20,259 bases of DNA from a virus, in IMG/VR virus record IMGVR_UViG_3300042305_001591, positions 1 to 20,259 of that record, one strand, 5' to 3'. Each line of letters begins with the position of its first letter. Within the stretch, counting starts at the first letter, position 1. The position numbers and the translations under genes are program-made. The notes below the pieces were generated by a model, which saw nothing but the letters and a program-made list of their open reading frames with translations, ran no database searches and was not told the origin of the DNA. Positions 7,735 through 18,278 of the stretch are shown here, piece by piece.

Positions 7735-8078
7735 TGGCCTCCCGGCACCTCACCATCAAGAACCTGCTGCTGCTCACCAACTGGCTGCGTGAGAACGTCG
7801 AGCTGCTCAAGGCTGAGTACGCCCCGGCCGTGGCGAAGGCCGCCGAGGCCGCGCTGGGCTTCCCGATCAGCGACCGCAGCATCCACAGCATCGCCGAGGC
7901 TGAGGGATTCACCCTTCGCCGGCACCTCGAGATCGAGCGGGCCGCGGCCAAGACCAAGCCCGAGCCGCAGCTGTTCGACGGCGCCGCCCTCGAGCGGCTC
8001 GACCGCCTCGAACGCCTCACCGTCCGCCTCGCTCACCACCTCAACCTGCAGCACCTCATCAAGGAGACCAACCAGTGA
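7734..8078 (+). CDS. Small helical protein upstream of the exonuclease, unknown function
   Basis: The ATG at 7734 overlaps the previous stop (TGATG) and has an AGGGAGG site at 7721-7727. The 114-residue product is almost entirely helical: a Leu-rich helix (KNLLLLTNWL), an Ala-rich stretch, a SDRSIHSIAEAEGF segment at about residues 46-60 that could be a turn and recognition helix, and a Leu-spaced C-terminal coiled coil. A DNA-binding role is possible but the helix-turn-helix is not clear. Its stop overlaps the next gene's GTG (GTGA), so it is co-translated with the exonuclease. Confidence 0.65.
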   Translation: MASRHLTIKNLLLLTNWLRENVELLKAEYAPAVAKAAEAALGFPISDRSIHSIAEAEGFTLRRHLEIERAAAKTKPEPQLFDGAALERLDRLERLTVRLAHHLNLQHLIKETNQ

Positions 8079-8917
8079 ACGACATTGCCGATGGCATCTA
8101 CGCCGCCATGACCGAGGAAGCCTACCGGGCCCTGCCCTACGTGAACGCCTCGAGCATCAAGGCCGGCCGCACCAGCATGCAGCACATGAAGCTCGCCATG
8201 AGCGGCGTGTCCGAGAGCTCGGCCGCCAAGGAGCTCGGGACGATCACCCATGCCATGCTCCTCGAGCCGGCGAAGATTGATCGGGTGGTGGTGGCCCCCG
8301 ACTTCGGCGATCTGCGGACCAAGGCCGCCAAGGAGGCCAAGGCCGCGTGGACCGCGGGCCTTCCGGCCGGCGCCATCATCGTCGATGTGGAGACCTACCA
8401 GGCCGCCCAAGGCATGGTGGAGGCCTGCCGGCGGCACCAGACCATGCGGGACCTGCTGGCCGCCGATGGCAGCAGCGAGCTGGTCTTGGTGTGGACCGAC
8501 GCCGAGAGCGGCCTGCGGTGCAAGGCGCGGGTGGACCGCCTCATCCACCACCACCTGGTGCTCGACGTGAAGACCGCCAGGGCCGCCGGCAGCTTCGCCT
8601 TCACCAGGGCCGTGGCCGCCTACGGGTACCACATGCAAGCGGCGTGGTACCGCCGCGCCGTGGCCGCGACCACCGGCGAGCTGCTGCCCTTCGTCTTCGC
8701 CGTGCTCGAGAGCAGCGCACCCTACAGCTGCTGCCTCTACGAGCTGGACCACCAGGCCCTCGAGCAGGTCGACGCCATCAACTCGCAGATACTGCGGCAG
8801 TGGGCCGCCTGCGTCGAATCTGGCGAGTATACTTCTATCCAGCAGGACGGCCAGGTGCAGCTGCTCGAGCTGCCCGGCTGGGCCTTCTCTGGTGCCGCCG
8901 ACGTGGCCGGCATCTAA
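8075..8917 (+). CDS. PD-(D/E)XK exonuclease, RecE/exodeoxyribonuclease VIII-like
   Basis: This 280-residue protein starts at GTG 8075 with AAGGAG upstream. The N-terminal Y-x-x-L-P-Y-V-N-A-S-S-I-K region and the G55-T-I-T-H59-A-M-L-L-E64-P block are typical of phage PDDEXK-like exodeoxyribonucleases. The catalytic core is visible as K150-A-R-V-D154, then D164-V-K166 on the next strand, then Q188-x3-Y192, the QxxxY helix of lambda-exonuclease/RecB-type nucleases. The known activity is 5'-3' resection of double-stranded DNA to give 3' overhangs for a single-strand annealing protein. The next gene encodes exactly such a partner (RecT). The metal ligands look intact, so it is probably active. The sequence AGTATACT occurs at 8826-8833, inside the gene. 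Confidence 0.88.
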   Translation: MNDIADGIYAAMTEEAYRALPYVNASSIKAGRTSMQHMKLAMSGVSESSAAKELGTITHAMLLEPAKIDRVVVAPDFGDLRTKAAKEAKAAWTAGLPAGAIIVDVETYQAAQGMVEACRRHQTMRDLLAADGSSELVLVWTDAESGLRCKARVDRLIHHHLVLDVKTARAAGSFAFTRAVAAYGYHMQAAWYRRAVAATTGELLPFVFAVLESSAPYSCCLYELDHQALEQVDAINSQILRQWAACVESGEYTSIQQDGQVQLLELPGWAFSGAADVAGI

Positions 8918-8941: not shown

Positions 8942-9793
8942 GTGAGCGATGACATCGACGCCATCATGGCCGACGCGCGGCCCAATCCGCCGACGCAACC
9001 GCAACCGCAACCGCAACAGGCCGCCATGGTGGTGGCAGAACCCAAGGCCAGGGTGCCATTGGGCCGGCGTGGCCTCGAGGCCGACAACCTCGACAGCCTC
9101 TACCGCATCGCCGTCATGTACCTCGAGGGCGGGGCCTTCAAGCCCGAGTTCTTCGCCGGCTGCGAGACCAACCGCAGCAAGCTCGCCAGGGTCATGTTCA
9201 CCCTCGAGAAGGGCATGGCCATCGGCCTGGCCCCCACCGAGTGCATCGACGCCATGGCCTTCATCCGCGGCAAGATCACAATCTATGGCGATGCCCTGGT
9301 GGCCTGCGTGAAGCGGCACCCCGAGTGCACCGGCATCTCGACGGTGTGGGGTGGCGACGGCGACGACTTCGGCGCCACCGTGACCGTGGGCCGGCGGAAC
9401 CAGGCCGACGTGGTGGTGAAGTTCACCATCGCCGATGCCAAGCGTGCCGGCCTCTGGGGCCAGCGCGGTCCCTGGAGCTCCTACCCCCAACGCATGCTGC
9501 AGCAGCGTGCCCGCGGCTTCGCCATGCGTGACCAGTTCCCCGACGCCCTCATGGGCGCCATCACCGCCGAGGAGGTGCAGGACTACCGCGACGACTGGCG
9601 GACGGTGCCGACGCCGCCCGCGGCGGCTCAGATGCAGACCAGCGTGCAGCCGGAAGCTCTGCCGGCTCCCCAGAAGGCCGTCGAGGCCGCGCCGAGGCCG
9701 CAGGAGCCCTCCAAGGCCCAGCAGCCTCCCAATGGAGCCCCCACCGCAGCCCAAGCCCTGGCGGCCATCAGGACGGCCACCAAGGGCAACTGA
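8942..9793 (+). CDS. recT: RecT-family single-strand annealing protein
   Basis: The start is GTG 8942 with TAGGAG 10 bases upstream. The 283-residue product has an acidic leader and a short (QP) tract (encoded by four CGCAAC units at 8994-9017). Residues about 45-215 are the RecT core: the KGMAIGLAPTECIDAMAFIRGKITIYGDAL block and the GPWSSYPQRMLQQRARGFAMRDQFPDAL block near the end are hallmark segments of the family. The last 60 residues are Pro/Ala/Gln-rich and disordered, as is usual where these proteins interact with host SSB or partner proteins. RecT anneals complementary single strands produced by the neighbouring exonuclease, for homologous recombination and for concatemer or end repair during phage replication. 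Confidence 0.92.
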   Translation: MSDDIDAIMADARPNPPTQPQPQPQQAAMVVAEPKARVPLGRRGLEADNLDSLYRIAVMYLEGGAFKPEFFAGCETNRSKLARVMFTLEKGMAIGLAPTECIDAMAFIRGKITIYGDALVACVKRHPECTGISTVWGGDGDDFGATVTVGRRNQADVVVKFTIADAKRAGLWGQRGPWSSYPQRMLQQRARGFAMRDQFPDALMGAITAEEVQDYRDDWRTVPTPPAAAQMQTSVQPEALPAPQKAVEAAPRPQEPSKAQQPPNGAPTAAQALAAIRTATKGN

Positions 9794-10049: not shown

Positions 10050-10934
10050 ATGACCGACAGAGACCATGCCGCCACCGTCCGCCTGCTTGCCGAGCTGCCC
10101 TTCCTCACCGGCAAGGTGCCCGGCCGCGGCCACCCGCCTGGCGAGGCGCTGGTGACCTATCACGCCGAGCTCGCCCAGTACATCCTCGACCACCACAACA
10201 AGCACGACCAGCAGCGTGCCCTCAACATGAACGAGGCTCAGAAGCTGGCCCGCGTGATGAAGGCCGGCGACTGGGTGGAGGGCCTGCGCGTCACCTGGAT
10301 CGTCTTCGACACCAACAACAATCTGGTGAACGGGCAGACCACCCTGCAGGCCATCGTCCTGGCGAAGGCAAAGCTGAAGATCCGCACCGCCTGGGGCGAC
10401 GATCCGAGCTGCATCGCCCTCTACGACGCCTTCCGGCCCAGGAGCAACGCCTACCTGGTGGGCTGCCTCGGCGCCGACTACGCCAACATGCGGGGAGCCT
10501 TCGCCCGCATGCGGCTCATGTTCGACAAGGGCCTGCCCCTGGGCAAGCCGGCGCCCACCGAGGTGATCGACCTGACGGTGAACGACAAGGTGGCCAACAG
10601 CATGATCGGGCGGTGCGGCGGCGCCTCTCGCGGCCTGCGTGCCGCGGGCATCCCCTACGCCATCGCCGCCTATGCCTGCTGGCGCATCGCCAAGGTTCAC
10701 GGCGTCGAGAAGGCCTGGGAGTTCATGCACCGCACCATCCAGGGCACCGAGCTGAAGGACAGCGACCCGCGGCTGCAGCTGGTGCGGCAGTTCCGGGCTG
10801 GCAGCTTCAACGTGGACGGCGACCGCCGGCGTGGCGTGTCCCTGATCATCAAGGCCTGGAACATCCTGCACAGCAGGAGCTCGGCCAAGCTTCGCGCCGT
10901 GGCCGGCGAGCCCATTCCCGACGTGAACCCCTGA
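10050..10934 (+). CDS. ParB/DGQHR-like phage protein with degenerate signature
   Basis: The ATG at 10050 has GGGAG at 10040-10044, which makes it the start; a long upstream in-frame extension would read through recT in another frame and the structured leader. The 294-residue product matches the layout of a widespread phage family related to ParB-like domains: an early helix-rich part, an A-x-x-M-x-x-G-D-W segment, then a strand followed by a GQ-containing turn at residues 94-100. Usual members carry DGQHRL there. This one reads N94-G-Q-T-T-L99, so the His and Arg are replaced. The C-terminal half is helical. Function in the family is mostly unknown; ParB-like folds can be nucleases, CTPases or DNA binders. 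The C-terminus PIPDVNP repeats the end of the protein at 1373-1777. Confidence 0.6.
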   Translation: MTDRDHAATVRLLAELPFLTGKVPGRGHPPGEALVTYHAELAQYILDHHNKHDQQRALNMNEAQKLARVMKAGDWVEGLRVTWIVFDTNNNLVNGQTTLQAIVLAKAKLKIRTAWGDDPSCIALYDAFRPRSNAYLVGCLGADYANMRGAFARMRLMFDKGLPLGKPAPTEVIDLTVNDKVANSMIGRCGGASRGLRAAGIPYAIAAYACWRIAKVHGVEKAWEFMHRTIQGTELKDSDPRLQLVRQFRAGSFNVDGDRRRGVSLIIKAWNILHSRSSAKLRAVAGEPIPDVNP

Positions 10935-10956
10935 GGAGCCAAGCCATGACCGAGCG
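10935..10956 (+). repeat. Left copy of the 22-bp direct repeat
   Basis: This copy contains GGAGCC, the ATG at 10946 and the first codons of the HNH gene. It matches 11615-11636 with one mismatch. Confidence 0.9.
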
Positions 10957-11629
10957 TAACACAGCGTTCGTTCCCAATGTAAGCACATCCGAACGCATCA
11001 TCAGCGAGGTGCATCGTCACTTCGTCATGGAGTACACCCAAGACCGTCCGCGCAAGATGCCAAGCATCACGGCGATCCAAGATGAGTGGCGTGGAAAGTA
11101 CCAGGAGATTCGCAACCAACCATTGCCAGCCGATCACGTCTGCTGGGAGTGTGGGCATGCCGGATCACGGATCGAGCGAGCCCACATTCTGATGCGCAGA
11201 CTGGGCGGAACCGATCATCCTGGCAACCTTTGGATGCAGTGCCGCCGATGCCATGACGAGACCGAGTTCATGGACGTCTGGTACAAGGTCCATCGGTTCG
11301 CCGATCCGTTCCGTGACAAGAACGGGACGATGTGGAGGGCCCTGAACGTCTACGAAAACCGATTCCGATTCTCTAACAGAAGCAAGCCCAAGGGCATCTG
11401 CAAGCCTTTCCTCAAGACAGACCCAATCGACCAGGTGTCGGAGCTCGATGACGAGTGCATCATGGTGGTGCAGGCATGGATGCACCAGATCGACTGTCAG
11501 GGCAACGAATACGCCAAGGCCCTGCTGCCGGCATTGTGCGATAGGTTCACTGACGCCGCCAAGACCTGCAAGGACATCAAGGGCACCCTGTTCGACAAGA
11601 CCAAGCCACACACTGGAGCCAAGGCATGA
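10946..11629 (+). CDS. HNH endonuclease with Cys4 zinc site
   Basis: The ATG at 10946 has AGGAG at 10934-10938. The 227-residue product has the HNH layout at residues 66-103: C66-x2-C69, then R-A-H80, N94 and C99-x2-C102-H103. The two CxxC pairs hold a structural zinc, and H80, N94 and H103 supply the beta-beta-alpha-metal catalytic site, as in phage HNH and homing endonucleases. The flanking regions (1-60 and 110-227) are helical and probably bind DNA. Base composition falls to about 50% G+C at 11341-11400, against markedly higher values in adjoining genes, and codon choice is more relaxed, which indicates recent acquisition. It may cut DNA to promote its own spread; a packaging role is less likely because it is far from the terminase. 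All catalytic residues are present. Confidence 0.82.
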   Translation: MTERNTAFVPNVSTSERIISEVHRHFVMEYTQDRPRKMPSITAIQDEWRGKYQEIRNQPLPADHVCWECGHAGSRIERAHILMRRLGGTDHPGNLWMQCRRCHDETEFMDVWYKVHRFADPFRDKNGTMWRALNVYENRFRFSNRSKPKGICKPFLKTDPIDQVSELDDECIMVVQAWMHQIDCQGNEYAKALLPALCDRFTDAAKTCKDIKGTLFDKTKPHTGAKA

Positions 11630-11636
11630 CCGAGCG
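11615..11636 (+). repeat. Right copy of the 22-bp direct repeat
   Basis: This copy encodes the last HNH residues (Gly-Ala-Lys-Ala) and at the same time carries the ribosome site, the ATG at 11626 and the first codons of the next gene. Confidence 0.9.
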
Positions 11637-11901
11637 AGAAGCCATCACCGACGAGCTGGTATGCCAGCGGGCCCAGGCCAAGGAGCGCGAGTACACCGTG
11701 GGCTGGCGGGCATTCCGCGACGGCCTGCCCTGCCCCAGCGGCCACCTGGCGAAGCTGGGGTACCTCGAGGCCCAGAGCGCGGCCGACGTGCACGGGCGCG
11801 ACATCCTGTGGAGCGCCAAGGTGCCCGACACCGGGTGGCTGCCCGACGAGACCTGCAGCTGGCGGCGTGCCGAGACCGACCGCGACCGGCCGCCGGCGTG
11901 A
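11626..11901 (+). CDS. Small hypothetical protein after the HNH gene
   Basis: This 91-residue protein has its ATG overlapping the HNH stop (ATGA). Its ribosome site GGAG (11615-11618) lies within the last HNH codons. It begins Met-Thr-Glu-Arg like the HNH protein, because both starts lie in copies of the same repeat. It is rich in Arg, Glu, Trp and Ala, with the segment GWRAFRDGLPCPSGHLAKLGYLEAQ at about residues 26-50; small phage proteins with a G-W-x-A-F/Y pattern of this type are common, but I know no function. It probably followed the ParB-like gene directly before the HNH gene arrived. Confidence 0.65.
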   Translation: MTEREAITDELVCQRAQAKEREYTVGWRAFRDGLPCPSGHLAKLGYLEAQSAADVHGRDILWSAKVPDTGWLPDETCSWRRAETDRDRPPA

Positions 11902-12195
11902 GGCAACTGGTAAGCAACACTGATCGGTTCGACCGGCAACCGGAGTAAACCGGAGTGCCCGACTACTCCGGGTGGACCGCCGACAACCGAGGCCACCCGA
12001 GGTGTGAAAACGCCTCGGGTGGATTCAACCAGAAGCCCTTGTGTTATCGGGCAGCGGCTGGTACCATGTGGGTGCTTCTCCCTGATCTGACAATGCAGCC
12101 TCATCGACACATCGACCCCCCTCCGTGCCAATGGCGTCCTGCATGCGCCACGGGAGAAGCCACGGCTGGGGGTCGTTGTGTCCGTGAGATGACCA
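11902..12195 (+). ncRNA. Structured leader or small RNA upstream of the replication initiator
   Basis: These 294 bases separate two genes and hold no convincing coding frame. Perfect stems are: A, 11950-11956 with 11965-11971; C, 11993-12002 with 12013-12022 (ten pairs); D, 12031-12036 with 12074-12079; E, 12113-12120 with 12168-12175 (eight pairs), enclosing 12123-12125 with 12151-12153 and 12132-12136 with 12146-12150. A competing stem B, 11969-11975 with 11993-11999 (seven pairs), cannot form together with A or C. A tandem pair of CCGGAGT (11940-11946 and 11950-11956) gives A two possible 5' arms. Mutually exclusive stems ahead of an initiator gene suggest conditional control (attenuator, riboswitch or antisense target) of replication. 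The ribosome site at 12186-12190 lies just after stem E. Confidence 0.5.
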
Positions 12196-12969
12196 ATGGC
12201 AGATGACTGGATCAAGGTGCGGGTGAACCTGCACACGCACCCGAAGGTGGTGCGCATTGTGTGCGCAGTTTGTGCGCAGCTTGTGCGCGATGGGTGCGCG
12301 GCAAGTGCGCAGCGGTGCATGGTTGTCGGTGCGCTGCACCAGGTGTGGAGCCTCTTTGACGCCCACAGCCGCGACGGAATCCTCGAGGGCTACAGCCTCC
12401 AGACCGTCGATGAGCTGGTGGGAATCCCTGGCTTTTCCAATGCCATGGGCAGCGTCGGCTGGCTCACGCAGACCGATAAAGGTCTGGAGATGCGAGACTT
12501 CGACATCCACAACGGAATGGGGGCCAAGCGTCGGGCCGATCATGCAGCCCAGACACGTGTGCGCAGAATGTGCGCAACTGGTGCGCACAACTCGCGCACA
12601 GAATGCGCACCAGAGAAGAGAAGAGAAGAGAAGAGTAAGAAATCCCCCCATAGTCCCCCCAAGGGGGACGCGGGCGAAGAGCCCCCCAAGCTCATCCCGG
12701 CGTACTCCGAGGCGTTCAACCGGTTCTGGGCGCGGTACCCGCGGGCTGGTCGCCATGCCAAGGTAAAGGCCTTTGGCTATTGGCAACGAGACCAGATCGA
12801 ACGGCCAACCGAGCCGGGAAAGCCCAGCCTGGTCGAGCACATCATGCTGAACCTCGAGAAGTACATCAAGAGCAAGAAGTGGCAGGATGGGTATGTGCAG
12901 CACACCACGACTTACCTGAATCAGCGTCTGTGGGCCAATGACCCACCCAGCCCGGAGATCCCCGAATGA
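12196..12969 (+). CDS. Phage replication initiator (winged-helix N-domain, replisome-organiser-like C-domain)
   Basis: The ATG at 12196 has only a weak GAGAT site. The 257-residue product has an N-terminal domain (about residues 4-118) with the D-W-I-K-V-R ... H-P-K-V ... W-S-L-F-D-x-H-S-x-D-G ... F-D-x-H-N-G-x-x-A-K-R-R pattern of phage winged-helix initiators. A basic, Cys-bearing linker (about 119-165) follows. The C-terminal domain (about 166-250) has the F-x-x-F-W-x-x-Y-P-R ... Y-L-N-x-x-x-W pattern of phage replisome-organiser proteins. The family binds origin iterons and recruits helicase or its loader. Two iteron arrays lie within the gene itself, at residues 19-40 and in the linker 122-139, as in lambda O. 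Cys, Val and Arg choices there follow the DNA repeat. It heads the replication operon and its stop overlaps the next ATG. Confidence 0.8.
   Translation: MADDWIKVRVNLHTHPKVVRIVCAVCAQLVRDGCAASAQRCMVVGALHQVWSLFDAHSRDGILEGYSLQTVDELVGIPGFSNAMGSVGWLTQTDKGLEMRDFDIHNGMGAKRRADHAAQTRVRRMCATGAHNSRTECAPEKRREEKSKKSPHSPPKGDAGEEPPKLIPAYSEAFNRFWARYPRAGRHAKVKAFGYWQRDQIERPTEPGKPSLVEHIMLNLEKYIKSKKWQDGYVQHTTTYLNQRLWANDPPSPEIPE
12250..12315 (+). repeat. Iteron array 1: six GTGCGC units at exact 11-bp spacing
   Basis: GTGCGC begins at 12250, 12261, 12272, 12283, 12294 and 12305; the following base is A in four units and G in two. Degenerate extra units occur at 12315 and 12329. Because 11 is not a multiple of 3, the unit passes through all three codon phases (Val-Arg, Cys-Ala, Ala-Gln), so selection on DNA and not protein is the likely cause. 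One unit per helical turn would put all binding sites on one face. Confidence 0.88.
12559..12613 (+). repeat. Iteron array 2: five TGCGCA-type units at exact 11-bp spacing
   Basis: TGCGCA begins at 12560, 12571, 12582 and 12604, with CGCGCA at 12593, so all five share an 11-bp register. TGCGCA is palindromic, suited to a dimer or to binding in either orientation. The array lies in the linker-coding part of the initiator gene and is followed at once by the purine tract. Confidence 0.88.
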
Positions 12970-14510: not shown

Positions 14511-14780
14511 ATGACCAAAAGGCACATACAGGTGGCGGCCGAGCTCCTCGAGGCGGCCCAGAAGCGAGCGGAAGCGGCCGAGGCGAGGGCGGCACAGGCC
14601 GAGGCCGACCGCGACGTGCTGGCGACCGAGGTCACGGCGTGGCGAGATGCCGACGCTTCGCACAAACTGCTTGAAGCCATCGATGTGTGCGACGTTTATG
14701 GCCACCGCCATGCCGTTGAGAACGCCCAGAAAGAAGTTGACGCAAGCGGTGCCCTTCAGCGGGCGAAGGAGGACAAGTGA
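14511..14780 (+). CDS. Small coiled-coil protein
   Basis: The ATG at 14511 has GGAG at 14501-14504. The 89-residue product is mostly one Ala/Glu/Arg-rich coiled coil (about residues 8-50), followed by a short region with Cys and His. It ends in QRAKEDK, nearly the same as the end of the protein at 14880-15194, because both ends lie in copies of a 25-bp direct repeat. No function is known. It follows the ATPase gene by 19 bases. Confidence 0.6.
   Translation: MTKRHIQVAAELLEAAQKRAEAAEARAAQAEADRDVLATEVTAWRDADASHKLLEAIDVCDVYGHRHAVENAQKEVDASGALQRAKEDK
14756..14780 (+). repeat. Left copy of the 25-bp direct repeat
   Basis: It encodes the QRAKEDK end of the coiled-coil protein plus AAGGAGG and the GTG at 14777. 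Confidence 0.88.
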
Positions 14781-14848
14781 GCGACGACAAGACCGGCGGC
14801 AGCGTGTCGCCCATGTACAACCTGACCGTCCGCGACGCGATGCGGTGA
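14777..14848 (+). pseudogene. 23-codon remnant resembling the start of the next gene
   Basis: The GTG at 14777 has AAGGAGG at 14766-14772 and overlaps the previous stop. The peptide has a D-K-T-G-G-S-V-S-P start and an L-T-V-R-D-A segment, which parallels the D-D-G-G-T-A-F-P ... M-S-L-R-D-Y-F-A order of the downstream 104-residue protein. It stops after the R-D motif. It is best read as a truncated copy of the same family. A genuine translated micro-peptide is the alternative, given the strong ribosome site. Confidence 0.45.
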
Positions 14849-14879
14849 ACAGCGGCGAGAGCCGCAAGGAGTGAATGTC

Positions 14880-15194
14880 ATGAGCAAGACCGACGATGGT
14901 GGAACGGCGTTTCCGTTGGTGGTGAGGCACGAGCGAGACGAATACAGCGCGGGCATGTCTCTCCGCGACTACTTCGCGGCGAAGGCAATGCAAGCGATGG
15001 TCGGAAACTACCGCGTGGTCAACCATCGAAATCCTCTGATTGAAGGTGACACGACGACAACGGAGCCGCACCGCTCGATGATGCTGGACACAGACCAGAA
15101 GACCGGCGAGCATCATGGGGCGGTTGAGATTGCCGGTGACGCATACGCCGTCGCCGACGCCATGCTCCGTCAGCGGGCGAAGGAGGCCAAGTGA
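14880..15194 (+). CDS. Small phage protein with GGxAFP and LRDYFA motifs
   Basis: The ATG at 14880 is eight bases after AAGGAG (14866-14871); the in-frame GTG at 14871 overlaps that site and is unlikely. The 104-residue product has G-G-T-A-F-P at about residues 7-12 and G-M-S-L-R-D-Y-F-A-A-K-A-M-Q-A-M at about 25-40, a pair of motifs common to small accessory proteins of many phages and prophages whose function is unknown. The C-terminal helix carries Y-A-V-A-D-A-M-L. Third codon positions are less G/C-rich than in neighbours, which suggests recent arrival. The gene lies within the repeat-bounded cassette. Confidence 0.7.
   Translation: MSKTDDGGTAFPLVVRHERDEYSAGMSLRDYFAAKAMQAMVGNYRVVNHRNPLIEGDTTTTEPHRSMMLDTDQKTGEHHGAVEIAGDAYAVADAMLRQRAKEAK
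15170..15194 (+). repeat. Right copy of the 25-bp direct repeat
   Basis: It encodes the QRAKEAK end of the 104-residue protein plus AAGGAGG and the GTG at 15191. Confidence 0.88.
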
Positions 15195-15223
15195 CCAAGA
15201 ATCCTGGACGGTTCGATCCATGA
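15191..15223 (+). CDS. Possible 10-codon leader ORF coupled to the next gene
   Basis: The GTG at 15191 follows AAGGAGG (15180-15186) with ideal spacing. Ten codons later the TGA at 15221-15223 overlaps the ATG at 15220 of the next gene, which has no strong ribosome site of its own. Ribosomes could end here and restart on the next gene. It might instead be an accident of the right-hand repeat, which carries this start signal. Confidence 0.35.
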   Translation: MTKNPGRFDP

Positions 15224-15807
15224 GAGCCACCAACCTGCTCAGATCGGCGGCAAGGCCGTATCTCGCCACGCCAAGCCACGCCAAGGCATCGGTGCAGCCA
15301 GAAGCACCCCCAAGACCGCGTGGCCGTCCTGAGCCATTCAGCCGCGAATGGCTGATCTTGGCCAGCCGGCTCGGCATGCCCGACACCATGGCCGACTGGC
15401 CTAAGACGCCGCCGACCAACTGGGGAAACGACGGACGCATCAGGGCAGCCGACTACCGCCTGCGATACACCTGGACCGAGTGGTGCCGGGAGCGGCCGGC
15501 GGTCCTGCTCACCCTGATCCTCGAGCGGGTGCAGCATGCCAGCCGCGGGCACCTGGTCGAACGTGCCTGGGCCGTGGCCGTTACCGAGCAGACCGACCTG
15601 CAGCTGCTCACCCAGGCATGGCGGCACGTCGTGGGGTGCGTGATGGCCCGCAACGACGCCGCGACGGCCGAACGCATGCGGGTGATGGCCAAGGTGTGGA
15701 ACCAGACCAAGGGCGCCGGCATGAGCTGCCTGGACGTGTCGAGGCTGACCAGGACGCCCTACAGCCACATGATGAAGGCGAAGAACCATGGACACAAGAA
15801 GCAGTGA
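15220..15807 (+). CDS. Hypothetical accessory protein, helical
   Basis: The ATG at 15220 is the only suitable in-frame start and overlaps the stop of the 10-codon leader ORF. The 195-residue product has a basic Ala/Pro-rich leader (about 1-45), then a helical body with W-L-I-L-A-S-R-L-G, Y-T-W-T-E-W-C-R-E-R-P and a C-terminal basic segment ending in HGHKKQ. No family is recognised. The Trp/Arg-rich helices and basic tail could contact nucleic acid, but this is speculation. Its end overlaps the next gene by 20 bases. Confidence 0.6.
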   Translation: MRATNLLRSAARPYLATPSHAKASVQPEAPPRPRGRPEPFSREWLILASRLGMPDTMADWPKTPPTNWGNDGRIRAADYRLRYTWTEWCRERPAVLLTLILERVQHASRGHLVERAWAVAVTEQTDLQLLTQAWRHVVGCVMARNDAATAERMRVMAKVWNQTKGAGMSCLDVSRLTRTPYSHMMKAKNHGHKKQ

Positions 15808-16123
15808 GTACATCAGGATGACCCAAGAGGCCAACCACCTGCGCGACGAGCTCGCCCGCGTGCAGCTGCAGCTCGCCGGCACCAGGGCGGAAATCGCCGA
15901 GTGGCGGCGGGTCTTCGTCACCGGCAGCATCGTCGATGGAACGCCGGCCCACCGGATCCTGAAGACATTGGCCGATGAGGTCCGCGCGTGGCGGAATCTC
16001 GGGCATCAGGGCGAGATCGTGGGCGGCAACACTGAGCAGGCCAGCATCGACCTCGAGCAGGCCATCAACGCCACCGACGCCAGCGGCGTCTTGGATGACG
16101 CGAGCGGCACAGCCGCAGTATGA
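15788..16123 (+). CDS. Small coiled-coil hypothetical protein
   Basis: This 111-residue protein starts at the ATG at 15788, inside the end of the previous gene. Residues about 8-45 form a heptad-like coiled coil (hydrophobic Leu/Val/Ile spacing with Glu/Arg between), and the rest is acidic with a flexible Ala/Gly/Ser C-terminus. No domain is recognised. It belongs to a string of small overlapping genes between the replication and packaging modules. Confidence 0.6.
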   Translation: MDTRSSEYIRMTQEANHLRDELARVQLQLAGTRAEIAEWRRVFVTGSIVDGTPAHRILKTLADEVRAWRNLGHQGEIVGGNTEQASIDLEQAINATDASGVLDDASGTAAV

Positions 16124-17122: not shown

Positions 17123-17435
17123 GGCGGGGGGGCCGTGGATCCCCTGGGCCGACTGGTTCGTGGGCGACCAGGCCGAGGGCAAGCGCCGGCACAACGCGCG
17201 GATGAGGCAGGAGGCCGCCAAGGCCGCCAAGGCCCTCGCCATGCCCAAGGGTGCCCGAGTGGTCTGCACCTGGCAGCGCATCGGCCAACGCCGGCGTGAC
17301 GAGATCCGCGGCGTGCTGGTGAGGGTTTATCCCTACATCGTGCCCGGCATCGTCGTGGCCGTGGTTCGCCTCGAGACCGGCCAACGCCTCAAGATCGACG
17401 TGACCCGCGTGCGACTCGACAGGAGCAAGCCATGA
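17100..17435 (+). CDS. Small basic hypothetical protein
   Basis: The GTG at 17100 has AGGAG at 17088-17092. The 111-residue product has a Trp/Pro-rich beginning, a long Ala/Lys helix (about 28-55) and a C-terminal beta-rich part (V-V-C-T-W ... V-V-A-V-V-R-L-E-T-G-Q-R-L-K-I-D-V) that may be a small SH3- or OB-like barrel. No family is recognised. The stop overlaps the ATG of the tiny membrane protein. Confidence 0.55.
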   Translation: MPYIRKGEAGGPWIPWADWFVGDQAEGKRRHNARMRQEAAKAAKALAMPKGARVVCTWQRIGQRRRDEIRGVLVRVYPYIVPGIVVAVVRLETGQRLKIDVTRVRLDRSKP

Positions 17436-17528: not shown

Positions 17529-18278
17529 ATGCGGAGACCTACCCAGATCGCCACCGTGGCCGCCATGGCCTGCATCCTCGCCGGCTGCAAGTGCAAGCCC
17601 AGCGCATCGCCCAACGCCGGCACCAACCTGCCCGCGGCCGTCTCGGCGACCAAGGAAGCCGCCCAGGCCGTGCAGGCCGCGGCAACCAAGATCGAGACCG
17701 CCAACACCGAGGTGGCCAAGGTGCCCGAGCTCGCCGCCCAGGCCGTGACCATCTCCACCGGCGTGGCCGAGCTGAGGACCACCAGCGGCACCCTCGAGGC
17801 CGCCAGCGTGGCCATCGGTGCCGACGCCAAGAAGGTGGCCGAGCTGCAGGAACAGCTGGCGGCATCCCAGAAGCGGGTGGCGGACCTCGAGGCCAACAAG
17901 AACGGCCTGCTGGCCAAGCTCCTGGCCGCGGCCGCCATCGCCGGCTTGGGCCTCGCCGTGGTCTCCATGGTGTGGCTGCGGTCTGCCCAAGGAGCCATCA
18001 CCGGCGTGGCCGTCTTCGGCGCCGCCATCGCCGGCCAGTGGATCCTCGAATACCGGGTGGTGATCGGCCTCTCCGCGCTGGCCTTGGCCGCGGCGTGGAT
18101 CGCCTACGCCCTGGTGCGTGAGCGCAAGGCCGCCAGTGAGGTGGTGCGGCTCGTCGAGACCTTCAAGCCGCGGCTGGACGCCGACAGCTTCAAGACCGTG
18201 GCCAACGCCATCCAGAGCAAGGCCACCAAGAAGATCGTGGACACCATCCAGAGGGCCATCGGGACCAAGAAAGCATGA
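17529..18278 (+). CDS. Membrane-anchored lipoprotein with coiled coil
   Basis: This 249-residue protein starts with a lipoprotein signal peptide: basic R2-R3, a hydrophobic stretch and the lipobox L17-A-G-C20, so Cys20 would be lipidated. Residues about 35-120 are a long Ala/Lys/Glu coiled coil outside the membrane. Three hydrophobic segments follow at about 127-148, 155-170 and 178-195, then a helical cytoplasmic tail. A lipid anchor plus coiled coil plus membrane helices recalls spanin-like or holin-associated proteins, but the arrangement is unusual. It is placed between two other membrane proteins and overlaps the next gene by four bases. Function is uncertain. Confidence 0.65.
   Translation: MRRPTQIATVAAMACILAGCKCKPSASPNAGTNLPAAVSATKEAAQAVQAAATKIETANTEVAKVPELAAQAVTISTGVAELRTTSGTLEAASVAIGADAKKVAELQEQLAASQKRVADLEANKNGLLAKLLAAAAIAGLGLAVVSMVWLRSAQGAITGVAVFGAAIAGQWILEYRVVIGLSALALAAAWIAYALVRERKAASEVVRLVETFKPRLDADSFKTVANAIQSKATKKIVDTIQRAIGTKKA

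Follow-up and report, generated by a model that had tools for sequence, protein, structure and literature searches.

A predicted HNH endonuclease gene sits exactly between the stop codon of one gene and the start codon of the next in what appears to be a tailed-phage operon, and it is bounded by two nearly identical 22-bp direct repeats, each holding a ribosome site, a start codon and the first codons of a reading frame. We favor, with moderate confidence, the reading that short-homology recombination joined this gene to the operon as a module at a gene boundary, and that its translation is coupled to that of the gene that follows it. It could probably be carried as a removable module that leaves its neighbors working. 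The stretch of DNA analyzed (the window) is a whole record of 20,259 bases from an uncultured bacterial virus.

Anatomy of the HNH locus

The features on which the argument rests are given below in window coordinates; G001 is a related contig without the HNH gene.

8075–8917, + strand: exonuclease VIII-like gene (phrog_412), candidate partner in short-homology recombination
8942–9793, + strand: RecT-like single-strand annealing protein gene (phrog_561), by PHROGs family match
10050–10934, + strand: upstream gene, 294 residues, phrog_5931 (unknown function); 51% identity to its G001 homologue
10935–10956, + strand: left 22-bp repeat, with the SD (GGAG), the HNH gene ATG and Met-Thr-Glu-Arg
10946–11629, + strand: predicted HNH endonuclease gene, 227 residues, 57.0% G+C, with domain matches
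11615–11636, + strand: right 22-bp repeat, with an SD inside the HNH 3' end, the ATG of the 91-residue gene and Met-Thr-Glu-Arg
11626–11901, + strand: 91-residue gene of unknown function; its G001 homologue begins at the same Met and is 38% identical over the alignment

The gene order is exonuclease VIII-like, RecT-like, phrog_5931, HNH, 91-residue gene, replication initiator and DnaB-like ATPase; the genes ahead of the exonuclease VIII-like gene, including one for a collagen-like repeat protein, we read as tail-type. The collagen-like Gly-X-Y repeat tract lies at 2621–2919 in a putative tail-fiber gene. In tblastn the upstream gene weakly resembles a protein annotated as "ParB-like nuclease domain protein".

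The two repeats are identical at 21 of 22 positions and lie 680 bp apart, which confirms both the coordinates and the identity given in an earlier annotation made from the letters alone (hereafter the sequence-only reading). The left copy starts on the base right after the stop codon of the upstream gene (TGA, 10932–10934) and places the HNH ATG at 10946, and the right copy has its SD within the final HNH codons, where the HNH stop overlaps the start of the 91-residue gene as ATGA. Since the right copy lies inside the HNH end, the HNH gene would be read within the operon and the 91-residue gene started by the stop/start overlap. The positions of stop, start and repeats also agree with the earlier proposal that removing 680 bp would keep both the upstream gene and the 91-residue gene whole. 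The ribosome sites of the HNH and 91-residue genes have no unusual folding (z -0.37 and 0.16, respectively), and, with a transposable element and its target-site duplication in mind, none of the 25 longest inverted repeats of the window falls at the ends of the module, which is filled by the HNH gene. A swap of CCGGAG-type elements around the 91-residue gene was considered and set aside as weak, its score being reached in 20 of 500 shuffles.

As the sequence-only reading had noticed, the HNH gene is lower in G+C (57.0%) than the upstream gene (67.8%) and the 91-residue gene (73.2%), but low G+C alone is no proof of foreign origin because the replication initiator (12196–12969; 61.0% G+C) has the same third-position G+C as the HNH gene (0.744 against 0.746). 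Before the replication initiator lies a noncoding stretch (12036–12192) that is conserved in G001 at about 79% DNA identity and has a strong predicted fold (z -3.12, equaled by none of 200 shuffles). Three of its 41 consensus pairs are changed on both sides yet kept between the window and G001, and in Rfam nothing reaches the gathering score, mraW RNA being weakly matched below threshold on the opposite strand; the stretch may be a new structured RNA or an origin.

The HNH domain is matched in Pfam (HNH_5, E 1.2e-4; HNH, E 2.8e-3; both under the curated cut-offs), in the PHROGs HNH families (down to E 9.9e-7), in solved IscB structures (IscB HNH, E 8.4e-6) and in NCBIfam; the structure prediction gave no reliable fold (mean pLDDT 32.5). 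Outside this domain the protein has no relatives in the collections searched. At full length its only homologues in these collections are those of three contigs with an identical gene, the plasmids and genome contigs searched giving none and the phages a single match of 30% coverage.

Rarity of the shared start block

In dinucleotide shuffles of the window (n = 100), the mean number of 22-mer pairs that differ at no more than one position is 0.01. The real window has three such places, excluding the collagen-like repeat and an 8-base-spaced site (7062/7070): the HNH repeat, a pair at 14756/15170 that also lies at a gene boundary, and a pair at 17274/17600 that does not. This last direct repeat (17274–17295 and 17600–17621, at most one mismatch) has a spacing of 326 bp in the window and 320 bp in the related contigs G004 and G005.

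Because gene starts resemble each other, we also compared start contexts, using the 254 annotated starts of four GC-rich phages (Nigel, YuA, TM4 and D3112). The best of their 8,242 start pairs matches at 18/22 positions and comes from TM4, a phage with known start-associated sequences; the best of the 250 adjacent pairs matches at 14/22. Among 253 start pairs of the window, with starts hand-picked from the list of open reading frames, the HNH and 91-residue genes match at 21/22 and the runner-up at 15/22, and automatic start picking with a crude gene caller agrees (best other pair 14/22). No other ATG or GTG site exceeds 15/22 in four related contigs (the window, G001, G004 and G005). The start-pair comparison and these motif counts rule out general ribosome-site similarity as the main cause of the repeat, a doubt that the sequence-only reading had raised against itself.

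When the viral collection is scanned, the repeat pattern is found in four contigs, three of them close relatives and one unrelated. In the unrelated contig (IMGVR_UViG_3300048833_000778) the exact 22-mer occurs once, at the start of a phage gene that presumably resembles a terminase small subunit; a start context of this kind can therefore arise or spread without the HNH gene.

Relatives at the locus and a sister boundary repeat

Six related contigs (G001–G006) were reached, of which G002 and G003 do not cover the locus and stand outside the counts. The HNH module is present in three of the four that do (G004, G005 and G006) and absent from one (G001). In the three carriers the HNH protein and DNA are identical and the surrounding backbone is 99.4–99.9% identical; G004 is probably complete, since its 30,696 bases have 127 identical bases at both ends. 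As the module is the same in all three close relatives, no instance of its exact gain or loss is seen. Megablast found nothing among named phages that matches the window, no relatives of the upstream gene were found in genome contigs, and further alignment queries returned only the same contigs. One more contig, found via the upstream gene, has no HNH or 91-residue-like neighbor in its list of open reading frames and is excluded from the counts.

G001 differs at the gene boundary. Its upstream homologue stops at the corresponding codon and is followed by 126 bp and then by the homologue of the 91-residue gene, starting at the corresponding Met; DNA similarity to the window ends at 10919, near the stop codon, and is back at 11625, one base before the ATG. 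Since G001 keeps both neighbors with 126 bp between them, the two genomes differ by a module that fits between stop and start. The G001 spacer has its own SD and is no more similar to the HNH module than shuffled sequence is, 158 of 200 shuffles reaching its score. No HNH homologue is found elsewhere in G001, the best match (E 0.13) being rejected because it lies in an open reading frame without HNH character (10987–12354), which we take to be a capsid-type gene.

The sequence-only reading had spoken of a clean, reversible insertion at a gene start, and overall its interpretation is partly supported. The place of the insertion stands, the foreign-looking module lying exactly between the upstream stop and the downstream start and missing in G001. 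The words clean and reversible are not supported, because the spacer of G001 is not a single repeat, is dissimilar to the HNH module and has its own SD, and because all three close relatives keep the module unchanged; an empty site with a single repeat was found in none of the relatives compared. The pattern of presence and absence that this reading had hoped for is seen instead at a sister repeat of the same phages.

14759–14780, + strand: sister repeat copy 1, with AAGGAGG and GTGA (stop/start overlap), at the end of the open reading frame ending at 14780
15173–15194, + strand: sister repeat copy 2, at the end of the open reading frame 14871–15194
15199–16098, + strand: variable module, 900 bp in the window; other genes (693 bp) in G005

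The sister repeat (GCGGGCGAAGGAGGxCAAGTGA) also combines an SD with a GTGA stop/start overlap and lies at the ends of two different genes. Near-identity with the relatives stops at window position 15198, four bases past the repeat, and is back at 16099. G001 has the repeat three times, and its first two copies enclose a cassette, C (525 bp copy to copy), where the window has one copy and no C. In G005, C follows the second copy, where the window has the different 900-bp module, and in G004, whose backbone is 99.66% identical to that of G005, C is present twice in tandem, each time behind a repeat copy. The order of modules is A-C-B-D in G001, A-B-D in the window, A-B-C in G005 and A-B-C-C in G004. 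The two C copies of G004 match at 507 of 531 aligned positions, and recombination inside C, not at the 22 bp, may therefore explain the tandem step. The gene before the first sister-repeat copy aligns poorly between G001 and the window just ahead of the repeat. A single-copy site without the cassette is thus found for the sister repeat (14759/15173) but not for the HNH module. As judged from these alignments, repeats of a ribosome site with stop/start signals edge moving modules in this phage group, and no other finding speaks more strongly for the view that the HNH module is likewise a moving cassette.

Several further observations were made around the sister repeat, whose stretches span window 14756–15198, positions 2178–2983 of contig L019 and 8267–8708 of contig L018. 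Cassette C begins with a very repetitive GGC-A/T-AC stretch, predicted to encode a short Gly-rich protein, which lies at 8709–8890 in L018 and 2200–2340 in L019 and varies in length between contigs. The window (16103–16118), L018 (8887–8902 and 9410–9425) and L019 (2342–2357) share a block of 16 bp close to the replaced module's right edge.

Proposed origin of the module and its place among phage cassettes

In the explanation that we favor, the HNH gene would be a one-gene module set exactly at a gene boundary of a tailed-phage operon, and both module ends would be copies of one translation-start block (SD, ATG and first codons), the left copy starting the HNH gene and the right copy, in the last HNH codons, starting the 91-residue gene. 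Short stretches of identity around the start codon would have let the module enter by recombination; the exonuclease and RecT-like protein that the phage itself encodes about 1 kb upstream are plausible agents, and a break made by the HNH enzyme may have set the event off. RecT-type annealing proteins work on short, diverged matches. Recombination between the repeats would remove the module and leave the 91-residue gene intact. The insertion is likely neutral because the HNH 3' end supplies the ribosome site of the 91-residue gene; both neighbors would be expressed, and the putative nuclease may be mobile. Counted against this explanation are the lack of an exact empty site, the identical module in all three close relatives, the 22-mer at an unrelated gene start, the 17274/17600 pair away from gene boundaries, the shortness of 22 bp for RecA-type recombination and the Pfam scores under their cut-offs.

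True homing, in which the HNH enzyme cuts the start of the 91-residue gene in phages that lack the HNH gene and break repair then copies that gene in, would make homing the driver and the repeats a by-product of the first capture of the gene, and so overlaps with the recombination explanation. The HNH domain and the absence of the gene from one relative speak for it, and according to passages of a review (PMC2988022) T4-type phages are well documented to carry free-standing HNH and GIY-YIG genes between conserved ones. Here, however, only one relative lacks the gene, and no full-length homologue beyond the three identical contigs appears in the collections searched, so that we hold homing as the driver to be rather unlikely. 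Convergence, in which coincidence and selection gave both genes a favorable start context (GGAG, seven bases, ATG ACC GAG), draws on the exact 22-mer at the unrelated phage gene start, in one of the four contigs found in the viral collection, and on the fact that ATGACCGA also begins the upstream gene and both G001 homologues. Yet a match of 21/22 is far outside the observed distribution of start pairs, no other site in the four related contigs exceeds 15/22, and the starts that match are those at either end of the single module absent from G001; we therefore consider convergence improbable. Least credible, and in our view very unlikely, is a tandem duplication of the start of the 91-residue gene with the HNH gene placed later between the copies: the tandem duplication of a whole cassette with its boundary repeat in G004 offers a parallel, but the HNH gene has nothing of the 91-residue gene past the first four codons, and the similarity does not extend beyond the repeat on either side.

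Phage gene modules flanked by repeats have precedents. In LRRHood, genes 43–46 form a 1.35-kbp segment between 29-bp direct repeats, and related Cluster C1 mycobacteriophages have a single copy (PMC3029335). As judged from passages of that source, LRRHood resembles the HNH module in having a gene insertion between short direct repeats with some relatives lacking it, but has a true single-copy empty site where the HNH-less relative here has another spacer; no start site is described for its repeat in those passages. In Island3, the 18 C-terminal residues of gene 68, or about 50 bp of DNA, also stand at the C-terminal end of the upstream gene (PMC3029335, in the same passages), so that an extra gene and its neighbor have a boundary repeat in common, very like the sister repeat 14759/15173; this repeat spans gene ends, whereas the HNH repeat spans gene starts. 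T4-type phages have free-standing homing endonuclease genes, mob (HNH) and seg (GIY-YIG), several of them with demonstrated homing; these likewise lie between conserved genes and are absent in some relatives, but the review nowhere uses the words "direct repeat" (PMC2988022). Cluster K mycobacteriophages have start-associated sequences with GGAGCC just upstream of the starts of many genes (consensus GGGATAGGAGCCC; PMC3203893, in part), which resemble the HNH repeat in having GGAGCC just before start codons but are present in many copies and have another consensus; the HNH repeat has only two copies and reaches into the coding region.

Of the features of such cassettes, the HNH module has short direct repeats at both ends, at gene boundaries; of those of free-standing HNH homing endonucleases, the gene has the domain and is present or absent at one site among relatives. 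By analogy, and with the reservation that an exact empty site is lacking, we group the HNH module with LRRHood and Island3 gene 68 as events of one kind. What is new is that both edges of a nuclease gene copy a start signal; the literature searched yielded no published description of an HNH gene lying between two repeats that each hold a ribosome site and start codon, although one may exist.

The gene-by-gene shuffling of phage genomes is a long-standing question. Here one phage group has two different repeats at module edges, each with a ribosome site and a start or stop/start signal, which suggests one way for insertions to do no harm, namely by bringing along or copying the start signal of the displaced gene. 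It is a speculative and, in our estimate, doubtful extension that these phages build variable operons with translation-ready joints, short repeats with a ribosome site and a start or stop/start signal at gene boundaries, where the exonuclease/RecT pair swaps single-gene modules with expression unbroken. The HNH gene would then be a self-spreading user of such a joint, its 3' end carrying the start signal of its neighbor. If this is true, homing and module exchange would be linked by a nuclease gene that uses such a joint.
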